Virus record (IMG/VR): IMGVR_UViG_3300008459_000385
Coordinates: 1 to 24,267 of that record
Origin: a virus
Direction: 5' to 3' (one strand)
Length of the DNA stretch: 24,267 bases
Below are positions 19,222 to 24,174 of the stretch, piece after piece. Position 1 is the first letter of the stretch. Each line of letters opens with the position of its first letter. A program made the position numbers and the translations under genes. A model generated the notes under the pieces. The model did not search any database, was not told where the DNA came from, and was given only the letters and a program-made list of their open reading frames with translations.

Positions 19222-19704
19222 ATGAAAGTAATCGATGTAGAAGCACCTATCTACCCACGTAAAGCATATGTGGTAGAAGCTCATGAACAAGAATACCTAA
19301 ATTTTACTAAAGGTATTGAAGTATTACCTGCTCAGTATTATGAAAATGATAATGGTAATAAGTTCTACTTCAAAAAATATCACCCAGACGGGACTCCAGG
19401 TTGGAAAGGTGGTGGTTATGAATGTACTGATACTACAGGTGCTAGTAGAGCATTTTTTGCTGATTCATTAATTATACACCCTAGATATTTTAAACGTAAG
19501 GCGAAAGCTGAAAAAATACGTACAAGTACTGGTACAGGTAAACGTGGTCGTCCAAAAATGGATCCATCACTTAAAAAGGAAGTTATAGCATATGTTAAAA
19601 CAGGTGGTAAAAGAGGTCGTCCAAAAATGGACCCAACATTAAAGAAATCAATTGTTTACGTTAAAACAGGCGGAAAACGCGGACGCCCAAGGAAAGATAG
19701 TTAA
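19222..19704 (+). CDS. AT-hook DNA-binding protein
   Basis: 160 residues. Residues 1-95 form a compact alpha/beta domain of unknown family (MKVIDVEAPIYPRKAYVVEA; FYFKKYHPDGTPGWKGGGYE; SRAFFADSLIIHPRYFKRK). Residues 105-160 carry three AT-hook motifs with the GRP core at 109-111, 132-134 and 154-156, each in a GKRGRP context and separated by 22-23 residues. AT-hooks bind the minor groove of A/T-rich DNA, which fits an AT-rich genome. It starts 5 nt after the preceding gene in the same 'gttATG' context. Likely roles are nucleoid binding, transcription control or DNA packaging; which one is not shown. Confidence 0.75.
   Translation: MKVIDVEAPIYPRKAYVVEAHEQEYLNFTKGIEVLPAQYYENDNGNKFYFKKYHPDGTPGWKGGGYECTDTTGASRAFFADSLIIHPRYFKRKAKAEKIRTSTGTGKRGRPKMDPSLKKEVIAYVKTGGKRGRPKMDPTLKKSIVYVKTGGKRGRPRKDS
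19540..19701 (+). repeat. AT-hook coding repeat (3 units)
   Basis: Three tandem degenerate units of about 66-69 nt encoding GKRGRP-x-x-D with the linker Y-V-K-T-G-G. Synonymous differences between units (cgtggtcgt, agaggtcgt, cgcggacgc) show divergence after duplication under coding constraint. Confidence 0.8.
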
Positions 19705-19718: not shown

Positions 19719-20468
19719 ATGAGAATTAGAATAAAAGAAACTAGTAATACACCACAAGCGATATTTTTAGCAGGCCCAGCGGGTGCTGGTAAATCGTTTA
19801 TAGCTAAATCATTACCATTATCTAAATTTCAGGTCATAAATGTCGACGACACTTATGAAGAATTGTTAAAAGCATCAGGAATGGGCATGAAACAAAAGGA
19901 TTTTAATCCTGATGAATTGTCACAAGCCGCTAAGTTAATGGGACAGGCGCAAAAAGCTACCAAAGAAAAATACGCTAAAGCACTTGAAAATTTAAACGAC
20001 ATTATTATTGATGGAACAGGTGCAGCTTCTAAACCATTACTCAAGAAAAAGGCAGAATTAGAGGCTTTAGGCTATGAAACAATGATGGTAATGATATGGG
20101 TTTCACCTGTAACGTCACTTGAACGTAACGCTAATAGAGACCGCTCATTAATGCCAGGTATTGTTTTAAGAACATGGAGAGACATTAATTACAATGACGA
20201 AATATACGCTAAAGCATTTGGTGATAATTTAGTTATTATAAATAACGATCCAAAAGACGCTGATAAAAGCTTTGATCCTCAAGAAATAAAGCGTAGATTT
20301 TTTGACACATCTAAGGCTAAAGGTAAACCAAAAACACCTGAAGAAATAGAAAAAACAAAAGCAGATGTTGCTCAATTAAATAAAGATATTGAGTTAGCAC
20401 TTCAACAACAACCAAAATTCACACCAGCCACAACAGCTGTTGCTAAAATAAAGGCATTCATTAAATGA
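19719..20468 (+). CDS. P-loop kinase (zeta-toxin/AAA_33-like)
   Basis: 249 residues. The Walker A motif is GPAGAGKS at residues 19-26 in IFLAGPAGAGKSFIAKSL. VINVDDTYEELL (39-50) is the substrate-side acidic element seen in zeta-toxin and polynucleotide-kinase-like folds, and IIIDGTGAASKPLLKKK is the 'DGTG' loop of the same group. The lid contains ERNANRDRSLMPGIVLRTW. The C-terminal 50 residues are Lys/Gln-rich and probably disordered. The leader MRIRIKE is almost the same as that of the gene at 23800. The last codon overlaps the next start (ATGA). The substrate (nucleoside, nucleotide sugar, polynucleotide or protein) cannot be decided from sequence. Confidence 0.8.
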   Translation: MRIRIKETSNTPQAIFLAGPAGAGKSFIAKSLPLSKFQVINVDDTYEELLKASGMGMKQKDFNPDELSQAAKLMGQAQKATKEKYAKALENLNDIIIDGTGAASKPLLKKKAELEALGYETMMVMIWVSPVTSLERNANRDRSLMPGIVLRTWRDINYNDEIYAKAFGDNLVIINNDPKDADKSFDPQEIKRRFFDTSKAKGKPKTPEEIEKTKADVAQLNKDIELALQQQPKFTPATTAVAKIKAFIK

Positions 20469-22273
20469 TAGATTTAAATACAATATTAAACGAGTTAACT
20501 GAGGATGATGATAAAAAATCAACCTCAACTATTTGTTTCTACCCAGGTGGATTTAAACCACCACACGAAGGACATTACGAAGTACTTAAAGATTTAGCTG
20601 CTCGTCCTTATATTACTAAAGTAATAGTATTAATTGGACATAAAACTCGTGATGGTATAACTAAAGAAATGAGTAAACGTATCTGGGATTTATACCTAGC
20701 TGCTGCTCCAATGGCTAAAGTAGAAGTTAAATTATCTGATAATCCTGCTCCTATTAAAGATATTTTCTCTACAATGGATAATAATTTAGAATTACAAGCA
20801 TATGTTGCTGGTACACCTGAAGATGGAGAGGATCAATCTTATTTTCAAGGCTTAACTAAAGCATTTGGTACTAGAATAAAACCATTATCAATTGAAGAAA
20901 AAGTAGTTACTCAAGGCAAAAGATTATCTGGAACTGATGTTCGTAATTTAATTACTCAACTTAAAAAATCAGTACTTGCATTACGTTCTGTATCTGATAA
21001 AAATTCAACTGAATATTCTAAGGCGAGAAACGCTTATTTGAACACATTAGAAACACTTAAAGGATGTTTTCCTGAAGTAATAGTTCAAAAGGGACAATTT
21101 GATGATATTTTAAAAATATTAGGTATTCCTGTTTTAAATATAGATCAACTTCAAGAAAATCAAGAAGATGGTAACTTAATTATACGTGTACCTTATAAAT
21201 TAACAACTAAAATTGAGAATTTTTTAGATACAATGTTAATACCGTTTGAGTATTCTCAACAATCATTTGGTGGTCAAGAACGTCGTATGTTACTTCCTAA
21301 TTTAAGTGACAATAATGAACAACGTGAAAAAGTATTACAATATCTTTCAAAAAATAACATACCAGTTAATGTAGAAGAAGATATGTTCACTGTTAAATGG
21401 TGGAAAAAAAGTTTAGATGAAACATTAGCTGAACCTCAAGACACAACAGACAATATTATAGCAGATTTTATTGAATTTGCATCTCAAGCACTTGATTTAC
21501 AACAAGTACCTAAAATTACTTTTACTGATGATGAGAATGTAGCTAAACAAATGCATTCATTAGGCGCATACCAACCATCAACTGATAAATTATTAGTAGT
21601 AAAAGGACCAAGATTAACAGCAGACATATTACGTACATTAGCTCATGAGTTAGTACACCGTAAACAAGCTGAAATAAGACCATTAAGCGCTGAAGACGGT
21701 AAAACAGGATCAGAAATAGAAAATGAAGCTAATGCCGCGGCAGGAGTTTTATTAAGACAATTTGGTCAATATAGACCTGAAATATTTGAAGAAGGAACTG
21801 AAGAAAAATCACATAAAATATATTGTGATATGGATGGTGTGTTAGTTGACTTTGAAAAAGGATATGAAGACTTAACAGGACAAAATATTAGAGGACAACA
21901 CGTTTCAGGTGGTCCTAATTTTTGGGATCCAATCACTAAAGCAGGTGCTCAATTCTGGATTAAATTACCTTGGATGGCTGATGGAAAACAATTATGGGAA
22001 TATATCAAACAATATACTCCTGTATTATTATCAGCACCATCAAGAGAAGAGTCATCAAAAATAGGTAAGTATGTTTGGGTAAAAAGAGAAATGCCTGGTA
22101 CTAAATTAATTTTACGCTCAGCTGAACGTAAACAAGAATTTGCAACACCACAATCAATACTAATAGACGATAGAAAAGATAATATTGATAGATGGAAAGA
22201 AGCAGGTGGTATAGGAATTTACCATACATCATCCGCTGACACAATCCAGCAGTTAAAAAAATTAGGGTTATAA
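20465..22273 (+). CDS. Three-domain fusion: NMNAT-like nucleotidyltransferase, HExxH zincin, HAD phosphatase
   Basis: 602 residues. Domain 1 (about 20-165) is a HxGH-family nucleotidyltransferase: FYPGGFKPPHEGHYEVL with HEGH at 34-37 and the second signature SGTDVR at 155-160, matching NMN/nicotinate-mononucleotide adenylyltransferase-type enzymes. A mixed alpha/beta segment (185-320) of unknown family follows. Domain 2 (about 330-430) is a zincin: HELVH at 394-398 with likely third ligands in EIENEAN (417-423). Domain 3 (about 450-602) is a HAD phosphatase of the 5'(3')-nucleotidase type: D455-x-D457 in CDMDGVLVDF and LIDDRKDNI at 566-574. It is one uninterrupted frame overlapping the kinase gene. 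How the activities cooperate is unknown. Confidence 0.85.
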   Translation: MIDLNTILNELTEDDDKKSTSTICFYPGGFKPPHEGHYEVLKDLAARPYITKVIVLIGHKTRDGITKEMSKRIWDLYLAAAPMAKVEVKLSDNPAPIKDIFSTMDNNLELQAYVAGTPEDGEDQSYFQGLTKAFGTRIKPLSIEEKVVTQGKRLSGTDVRNLITQLKKSVLALRSVSDKNSTEYSKARNAYLNTLETLKGCFPEVIVQKGQFDDILKILGIPVLNIDQLQENQEDGNLIIRVPYKLTTKIENFLDTMLIPFEYSQQSFGGQERRMLLPNLSDNNEQREKVLQYLSKNNIPVNVEEDMFTVKWWKKSLDETLAEPQDTTDNIIADFIEFASQALDLQQVPKITFTDDENVAKQMHSLGAYQPSTDKLLVVKGPRLTADILRTLAHELVHRKQAEIRPLSAEDGKTGSEIENEANAAAGVLLRQFGQYRPEIFEEGTEEKSHKIYCDMDGVLVDFEKGYEDLTGQNIRGQHVSGGPNFWDPITKAGAQFWIKLPWMADGKQLWEYIKQYTPVLLSAPSREESSKIGKYVWVKREMPGTKLILRSAERKQEFATPQSILIDDRKDNIDRWKEAGGIGIYHTSSADTIQQLKKLGL

Positions 22274-22287
22274 AATAAAATATTGTT

Positions 22288-22863
22288 ATGAGCGAATCAA
22301 ATTTAAAAAAAGAATTCTCTAAACGTGATGTTCAGAGAATGCGAAATATTATCACTAAAAACTCAGGCGCCGCTACAGGTACTCAAGTAGGTTATAGTAA
22401 ACAACACCAAGACTACCAAGAAGGAGATATTTGGGAAGAAAATGGTAAACAATGGACCATCAAAAACGGTATTAAACAAACAGTAACTAAGTTTGATAAA
22501 CTTAAGAAAATGTTTATTATGCCTATTGCATGTCCTAAGTGTAGTCAAGCAATGGTTGTAAATGATTTAAATAAAAAGATGTGGAATATACATCAAATGT
22601 GTTTTGATTGTGTTATTAAAATGGAGGCACAACTTAAAGTTGAAGGCAAGTATGAAGAATACGAGCGTAGTATGTTAAATCAAAATAAAAATGCTATGGT
22701 TGATGATTTTGAAAAAGCTATAGAAGATTTTTATAGCAGTCGCGCAGAATCATATGTAACTGAACAAGGTGATGTTGAAACATGGGGAGGTGGTAAAGTT
22801 AATGAAGAAGAAATTAAAGAAGTTAAAGAATATCTTAAAAAATTACGCGAACACCAGATATAA
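22288..22863 (+). CDS. Zinc-ribbon phage protein of unknown function
   Basis: 191 residues. The N-terminal motif FSKRDVQRMRNIIT (10-23) and the segment EGDIWEENGKQWTIKNGIKQ (45-64) are a combination I recognise as recurring in phage proteins of unknown role. A four-Cys zinc site follows: C82 and C85 (ACPKCSQ), C105 and C108 (MCFDCVI), in a 26-residue knuckle. The C-terminal third is a charged helix ending LKKLREHQI. No catalytic residues are visible. The start lies 14 nt after the fusion gene in the context 'attgttATG'. A nucleic-acid or protein-docking role is inferred from the zinc ribbon. Confidence 0.65.
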   Translation: MSESNLKKEFSKRDVQRMRNIITKNSGAATGTQVGYSKQHQDYQEGDIWEENGKQWTIKNGIKQTVTKFDKLKKMFIMPIACPKCSQAMVVNDLNKKMWNIHQMCFDCVIKMEAQLKVEGKYEEYERSMLNQNKNAMVDDFEKAIEDFYSSRAESYVTEQGDVETWGGGKVNEEEIKEVKEYLKKLREHQI

Positions 22864-23224: not shown

Positions 23225-23800
23225 ATGCCATATACTCGCAAAGGAAACTGCGTATACAAAGAAACCGGTAAAAAAATGGGATGTTCAAAAGACGCATCTG
23301 CAGCCGAAAAATACATGAGCGCGTTATACGCCGCTGAAAAAGGACAATTAAAAGAAGGATATGGTGAGGACACAATTAATCCAAACGAACCTGAATTAGC
23401 CGTAACTATTGCGTTACCAAACCCAACACAGTTAATGGCTTCTTTTATCTCTACATTATTTTCATCTCGCACACAAGCACATATTTTCCATTTACAAGTA
23501 ACTGGACCTGGTTCATTTGCTACACATAGCGCTTTAAACTCTTACTATGACGGAATCATTGGTTTAGCTGATGGTTTAGTTGAGTCATTCCAAGGTCGTT
23601 ACGGTATTGTAACTGGCTATAAAGGTGAAGGACAATGGATCGAAAATACAAGCGACATAGTTAAATACTTTGAAGCACTTTGTATGTATGTTGAAAAAAA
23701 CCGTGTTTCCCTAGTACAGGATTCGTATATTCAGAATCAAATAGATGAAGTAGTTGCTTTAATCGAATCAACTAAATATAAATTAGTAAATTTACATTAA
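23225..23800 (+). CDS. Dps-like ferritin-family protein with N-terminal leader
   Basis: 191 residues. Residues 65-191 match the Dps/ferritin-like bundle of phage DUF5856-type proteins. The ferroxidase residues fall at H89, H101, D116 and E120, i.e. H-x11-H-x14-D-x3-E, the same spacing as H51/H63/D78/E82 in E. coli Dps. The helices are recognisable: TQAHIFHLQV, THSALNSYYDGIIGLADGLVESFQG, and IVKYFEALCMYVEKNR. Residues 1-44 are a leader (RKGNCVYKETGKKMGCSK; AAEKYMSALYAAEKG) not found in cellular Dps. Dps proteins oxidise Fe(II) with peroxide and can bind DNA. Its stop overlaps the next start. Iron chemistry is predicted, not shown; the bundle could also be purely structural. Confidence 0.75.
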   Translation: MPYTRKGNCVYKETGKKMGCSKDASAAEKYMSALYAAEKGQLKEGYGEDTINPNEPELAVTIALPNPTQLMASFISTLFSSRTQAHIFHLQVTGPGSFATHSALNSYYDGIIGLADGLVESFQGRYGIVTGYKGEGQWIENTSDIVKYFEALCMYVEKNRVSLVQDSYIQNQIDEVVALIESTKYKLVNLH

Positions 23801-24174
23801 TGAGAATCCGCATAGTAAAAGAAGAAGACTTTACTCCAATAGCTGACCCTAAGGAACCAAAACCAGCAGCTAAACAATTTCAAATATTAGCATCAATGAT
23901 TACTAACACTAAAGTTAATGATCAGACTAATATTTTATCTGCTATGCGCGCTTTACCAGGTGTAACTATTGTAAATTCACAAGCGGCTATTCCGGGTTCT
24001 AACTCTGAAGGTCAATTACGTTACAAAACAAACTGCGATATCAAAATTGACACATCAGCTCTTGAAGGTGATATAAAAGACGGTATTAGAAAAATTGTTG
24101 AAGATATTAAACAAATACCTGGTGTAGTTGAATTTAAGATATTACCTAAAGCTAAAGAAACAACTCCATATTAA
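23800..24174 (+). CDS. Small alpha/beta phage protein of unknown function
   Basis: 124 residues. It opens MRIRIVKEED, nearly the leader of the kinase at 19719. Residues 35-115 alternate helix and strand (NILSAMRALPGVTIVNSQ; YKTNCDIKIDTSALEG; GIRKIVEDIKQIPGVVEFKIL), a beta-alpha-beta-beta-alpha-beta order of the ferredoxin-like kind, with the repeated 'pGV' turn before each second strand. No catalytic motif is visible. It overlaps the Dps-like gene by one base (TAATG), so the two are likely co-translated and may act together. Confidence 0.6.
   Translation: MRIRIVKEEDFTPIADPKEPKPAAKQFQILASMITNTKVNDQTNILSAMRALPGVTIVNSQAAIPGSNSEGQLRYKTNCDIKIDTSALEGDIKDGIRKIVEDIKQIPGVVEFKILPKAKETTPY

Follow-up and report, generated by a model that had tools for sequence, protein, structure and literature searches.

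We analyze a 24,267-nt window of viral DNA (IMG/VR virus record IMGVR_UViG_3300008459_000385, positions 1-24,267) that encodes a 602-aa protein joining an N-terminal tag, a nucleotidylyltransferase, a small domain, a zincin and a HAD 5'(3')-deoxyribonucleotidase in one chain (20465-22273, + strand). The best explanation, to which we give a probability of about 0.6, is that this fusion from a T4-like phage is a virion enzyme polyprotein, which would be packaged into the head, cut in the prohead and injected. We infer these steps with unequal confidence: packaging into the head is likely, and cutting at the internal linkers is a more tentative proposal. The tag could target the fusion without any internal cutting.

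In the proposed mechanism, the fusion would be synthesized late, and its first residues, MIDLNTILNE, would act like a T4 capsid-targeting sequence that carries it into the prohead together with other tagged proteins of the same gene block. A gp21-type prohead protease would remove the tag after the [LI]xE motif and would probably also cut the linkers at their [LI]xE motifs, so that the mature head would store a free adenylyltransferase-type enzyme, a metallopeptidase and a deoxynucleotidase. The freed enzymes would be delivered to the host alongside the DNA and be active before phage gene expression; going by their folds, the HAD enzyme would hydrolyse deoxynucleotides, the nucleotidylyltransferase would modify some acceptor and the zincin would act on some protein. 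The first two steps are suggested by sequence statistics and homologues, the linker cuts by conserved motifs.

Capsid-targeted enzymes and polyvalent proteins are both already known, and the fusion combines the two. In the literature searched, we found no chain of several enzymes that has prohead-type cut sites where its parts join and whose modules also occur as separate tagged genes. If the explanation is correct, the injected members among the many uncharacterized proteins of T4-like phages from marine and freshwater habitats could be recognized from sequence alone, and there would be a mechanism for the nucleotidylyltransferases in cyanophage virions as well as an account of how multi-domain effectors turn into separate enzymes. 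It would also provide natural tags with which enzymes could be loaded into phage heads, a set of first-minute effectors testable one by one, and a simple code that turns almost any enzyme into injected cargo.

A conserved multi-domain fusion and its parts

The gene is a single uninterrupted ORF that starts with ATG and overlaps the 3' end of the upstream P-loop kinase gene by 4 nt. The original prediction had proposed a single-chain fusion of three parts, and all the motifs it named indeed lie in this one frame: HEGH (residues 34-37), SGTDVR (155-160), HELVH (394-398), ENEAN (419-423), DMDGVL (455-460) and LIDDR. Full-length fused homologues with 60-82% identity are present in more than 10 IMG/VR contigs, and every domain has a dN/dS of 0.13-0.29 relative to the nearest homologue. 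Because the full-length homologues come from independent contigs, an assembly artefact is rejected; together with purifying selection in all domains, they show that the fusion is not a chance reading either. The prediction had allowed that the parts might always be separate genes and the frame an artefact. The full-length fusions speak against this, although the HAD part does form a separate gene in some relatives (G007, G009, L045 and L032), so the parts are not always fused. In related phages, the domains are encoded by adjacent, separate genes, which might suggest a recent chance fusion with no functional consequence, but we regard this as extremely improbable; it is already largely refuted by conservation, the fused frame having been kept across more than 10 divergent contigs under selection throughout. 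One more fusion, L096, turned up in a MAG when genome contigs were scanned. The window as a whole had no megablast match among phage records, and PADLOC gave none for the fusion and two marginal ones for its neighbours.

An AlphaFold model built from 26 sequences is ordered in four parts, with breaks of low confidence at residues 8-17, 231-234, 304-324 and 443-448; with an overall pTM of 0.41, the model does not fix the relative placement of the parts. The three fold assignments of the original prediction hold up. It had missed a small domain at about residues 236-303, the N-terminal tag and the cleavage-type sites, and the last two bear most on how the fusion protein is used.

The first domain (about residues 18-228; 20516-21148, +; GGFKPPHEGH, SGTDVR) belongs to the HIGH nucleotidylyltransferase superfamily by its fold matches and by sub-threshold NCBIfam scores for coaD, NadM and NadD. 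Its HEGH and SGTDVR are conserved and fit the HxGH and [ST][GS][ST]xxR motifs, and CoaD/PPAT heads the structural matches to its model (Z about 14); Foldseek also matches it to NadD. The small alpha/beta domain that follows (21170-21373, +) is taken from the AlphaFold model and is cleanly absent in two relatives (L028 and L029). The zincin domain (about residues 325-440; 21437-21784, +; HELVH...ENEAN) appears IrrE/ImmA-like: its BFVD match is IrrE-like with 42% identity, the HExxH and the downstream E are conserved, and the matches of its relatives to M78, DUF6782 and M91 are all sub-threshold.

The C-terminal HAD domain (about residues 449-602; 21809-22270, +) matches PHROG 2643 (5'-3' deoxyribonucleotidase) with E 6e-25, and its model (residues 448-601) aligns with the 5'(3')-deoxyribonucleotidase structure 3bwv with Z 15.8 and an rmsd of 2.3 over 141 residues, in keeping with the mononucleotidase activity predicted for it. 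It shares the fold and the catalytic DxD...IDD motifs (DMDGVL, IDDR) with the 5'(3')-deoxyribonucleotidases NT5C and mdN but, unlike them, is the last domain of a fused phage protein. On this modelling, it resembles the dNMP enzymes and not NMN enzymes.

Two further modules accompany these domains in some relatives. An extra pol-beta/MNT-type nucleotidyltransferase (GSSANYN...SDVDLHI) lies beside the HIGH-type domain in L036:8001-10793, L045, L047 and L010 gp88, and some fusions (L026, L006 and L007) have a DVDPEQLKKGIEVEKEHTNDEKTAKKIALAHLGEDPKYYSKL module, presumably DUF5661-like, inserted in the linker before the zincin.

The original prediction suggested that the nucleotidyltransferase and HAD ends could share an NMN/NAD pool, with the adjacent P-loop kinase as a third step, such that NMN, NR and NAD could be salvaged or remodelled, for instance against NAD-depleting defences. 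Several observations invite this reading: the HxGH and SGTxVR motifs of the first domain, the best of its weak matches in a PDB profile search (archaeal MJ0541, E 0.006 over about 38 residues), the annotation of the homologue as NadR in the record of Flavobacterium phage immuto, and the designation of virion homologues as NMNAT in cyanophage papers. Yet among the NCBIfam models the domain scores best, weakly, as CoaD (TIGR01510, 26.0 bits against a cut-off of 103.3), ahead of two NMNAT models (19.2 of 127 and 17.4 of 181 bits) and NaMNAT (13 bits), all of them far below cut-off; the fold matches are likewise led by PPAT. The HAD domain is of the deoxyribonucleotidase, dNMP-acting type, and the kinase matches Zeta_toxin and AAA_33, not ribosylnicotinamide kinase. 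NadV/NAPRTase was found in 0 of 12 relatives, including the complete immuto, Melnitz and HTVC008M genomes (controls positive; the genome behind the window is incomplete). Neither the family scores and the fold nor the partner genes and the class of the kinase lend support to NAD salvage, which we consider very unlikely.

N-terminal tags and candidate capsid targeting

The first ten residues of the fusion, MIDLNTILNE (20465-20494, +; pLDDT is low at residues 8-17), form a proposed capsid-targeting peptide ending in [LI]xE, and a second site of this type, LTE, follows at residues 11-13. Among the fused homologues, [LI]xE is present at residue 10 in 13 of 16 and the second site at residue 13 in 15 of 16. 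The peptide is like the N-terminus of T4 gp24, MAKINELLRE. For the internal proteins of T4, an N-terminal peptide of this kind is enough for packaging, and gp21 cleaves it after [LI]xE (PMC9026906); Alt and these proteins carry a similarly short N-terminal peptide ending in [LI]xE.

Tags of this kind recur in the block of genes around the fusion, which we delimit as the region between the exonuclease and terminase genes. The recurring N-termini include MIKLIDILKE, MIKLTDILNE, MIDLNTILNE, MRIRIKE, MKKSELKQLIRE and others, and they end in or beside [ILV]xE. In the window, the upstream P-loop kinase (19719-20468, +; assigned to Zeta_toxin/AAA_33 by domain matches) has its own tag, MRIRIKE, and a 124-aa ORF in the same block (23800-24174, +) starts with MRIRIVKE. 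Across seven contigs and 165 protein families, an N-terminal [LI]xE with its E at residues 6-15 is found in 32 of 64 block families and 17 of 101 families elsewhere (Fisher 7e-6), where internal windows would lead one to expect about 6 of 64; several of the 17 are head genes. A stricter tag pattern gives 44 of 154 block proteins versus 3 of 262 elsewhere, with homologues counted more than once. [LI]xE is a short, common motif, and the tag rules and statistics are post hoc, drawn up after seeing the data, with homologues that are not independent events.

Homologous enzymes also carry different tags, and parts of the fusion stand alone elsewhere as tagged genes. Homologues of the kinase in G007 and G009 start with MIRLINLLLE or MVKLINLLRE, and their homology to the window's kinase begins where the tag ends; in the same two genomes, the HAD enzyme is a separate gene with its own tag. 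In Synechococcus phage B23, the zincin is encoded on its own, with the N-terminus MNYKQFLRE. Elsewhere, each of the domain types occurs in tagged genes that lack one or both of the other types; the separate HAD gene of L032 has no tag. A broader reading follows the same pattern: the clade would use a modular cargo code in which an enzyme is either a separate tagged gene or part of a polyprotein with [LI]xE linkers, from which the protease would free the enzymes before injection. We would put this at a little short of even odds.

Some of the proteins that carry such peptides are known from virions. Mass spectrometry detected an NMNAT-like protein or cytidylyltransferase in cyanophage virions (PMC9602691 and PMC10665884). 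The annotated nucleotidylyltransferases in question, of S-SCSM1 and S-CREM2, belong to the same superfamily as the first domain of the fusion and have T4-like N-terminal tags (gp91, MKSFLQFLKE|A, and gp154, MKNFSSFLTE|A, respectively); in contrast to the fusion, they carry no zincin or HAD in their annotation, which is the basis of this comparison. The S-CREM2 virion proteins gp6 (SAM hydrolase), gp13, gp14 (kinase) and gp136 also have such peptides. The passages of the two papers that were consulted make no mention of a targeting peptide. A stricter pattern, built from other contigs and T4 sequence after seeing the detected proteins, is present in 5 of 28 detected non-structural virion proteins of S-CREM2 versus 3 of 153 undetected proteins (p 0.0025). 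The broad [LI]xE pattern reaches only weak significance (7 of 28 versus 14 of 153, p 0.025); most detected non-structural proteins have no tag, and three undetected genes have one. In the Cas9-like gp12 of S-CREM2 (OR473000, 7704-10313), which is detected in the virion, RFASFMAEA occurs about 18 residues in; its true start may lie downstream of the annotated one, and a capsid-targeting tag may be present.

The shared N-terminal peptides might instead be another localisation or assembly helix, or a feature of translation initiation, given that they stand at the 5' ends of genes that are closely spaced and often overlap, and that the capsid as their target is read here from sequence. However, the tags are written in different codons across genes, and their residues show synonymous changes with almost no change of amino acid; because the codons differ while the peptide is conserved, selection acts on the protein. 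Their likeness to MAKINELLRE of T4 gp24 and to the tags of virion proteins detected by mass spectrometry further argues for capsid targeting, and we judge the alternative quite unlikely.

Relatives of the window also have the machinery that capsid targeting would involve. The window is a genome fragment, and genes for a gp21-type protease and capsid proteins are absent from it; the protease gene (PF03420, E down to 3e-32) is found in 8 of 20 relative contigs. Those contigs that reach the head genes carry a T4-type protease together with a gp23-type capsid protein, and the capsid cleavage site of T4, FLTE^A, aligns with LVVE in the relatives' capsid proteins. The arrangement is like that of T4 in its gp21-type protease and gp23-type capsid genes, with enzymes as the likely cargo. 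It differs from T4 in having many more candidate cargo genes in this clade and several enzymatic domains per chain with candidate cut sites between them.

[LI]xE sites at domain junctions

Within the fusion, candidate cleavage sites cluster where the domains meet. LQE (residues 229-231; 21149-21157, +) marks a domain junction and is present in 16 of 16 fused homologues. LDE and LAE (residues 317-323; 21413-21433, +) lie in the linker before the zincin, with LxE at residue 319 again in 16 of 16, and IFE (residues 440-442; 21782-21790, +) lies in the linker between zincin and HAD in 14 of 16. Overall, the tag and linkers cover 12% of the fusion's length and contain 6 of its 8 [LI]xE sites (p 7e-5), and the conserved ones adjoin the low-pLDDT breaks of the model.

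Longer fusions with extra modules follow the same layout. In L096 (795 aa), every apparent junction has an [LI]xE, and one of the modules corresponds to a gene that stands alone with a tag in G004 (73% identity). For L036, a 931-aa fusion, five sites at probable junctions were listed before modelling; four fell inside low-confidence segments of the model and one abutted such a segment, a modest test, as 27% of the model's residues have pLDDT below 50.

In a wider survey, we located the mature parts of tagged proteins inside longer proteins, which gave 39 junction classes, each examined in a 20-residue window; the junctions of fusions are not independent events. [LI]xE was found near 66% of these junctions versus a background of 22% and was the most enriched of the motifs tried. 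The motif [LI]xD was found near 21%. The reversed motif, E.[LI], was also raised (44% versus 22%), so composition accounts for part of the signal; the linkers are glutamate-rich.

The fusion might also work uncut, as a polyvalent effector that is packaged and injected whole, with domains that act together and linker [LI]xE motifs that are incidental. Like the polyvalent proteins, it has at least two unrelated catalytic domains in one polypeptide; these, as described in PMC5512222, likewise combine unrelated catalytic domains, including a zincin, in one phage chain predicted to be injected. The same paper reports that the N4 virion RNA polymerase is packaged unprocessed, and the linkers of the fusion are glutamate-rich. 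The domain set of the fusion was not found in the passages of that paper that were consulted. Against incidental motifs stand the conservation of [LI]xE at residues 231 and 319 in all 16 homologues, its top rank among the motifs tried at junctions and the occurrence of the same domains elsewhere as separate tagged genes. The T4-type targeting peptide and junctional [LI]xE sites also distinguish the fusion from polyvalent proteins and suggest release as separate enzymes. We consider an uncut effector unlikely, and favor a polyprotein that would be processed in the prohead.

One neighbouring gene also has a site of this type. The product of 23225-23800 is DUF5856/Dps-like (PHROG 858), with a short N-terminal part (MPYTRKGNCVYKETG...) joined to a ferritin-like part and LKE near the junction; the ferritin-like part of its homologue is a separate gene in G003 and G009.

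Immuto and the neighbouring genes

Flavobacterium phage immuto encodes a homologous nucleotidylyltransferase-zincin, gp88, next to a homologous HAD protein, gp87, and the two genes lie behind primase and exonuclease genes, as does the fusion. In contrast to the fusion, the HAD enzyme (NT5C) is a separate neighbouring gene with its own leader, NLADLLLE, and the NadR-like gp88 lacks an N-terminal tag and includes an additional pol-beta-like NTase.

A conserved protein with CxxC pairs (22288-22863) directly follows the fusion in nearly all relatives, and in immuto as gp86; it has a weak match to PADLOC PDC-S64. On the other side of the fusion and kinase genes, 19222-19704 encodes a 160-aa protein with three near-identical C-terminal repeats whose GRPK/GRPR cores are like AT-hooks, and the product is probably DNA-binding. 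In a relative (G002, L069:6404-9682), the phage block includes, just after the exonuclease gene, a gene for a 1092-aa outer-membrane beta-barrel with CarboxypepD_reg and a signal peptide, as in the TonB-type receptors of Bacteroidota.
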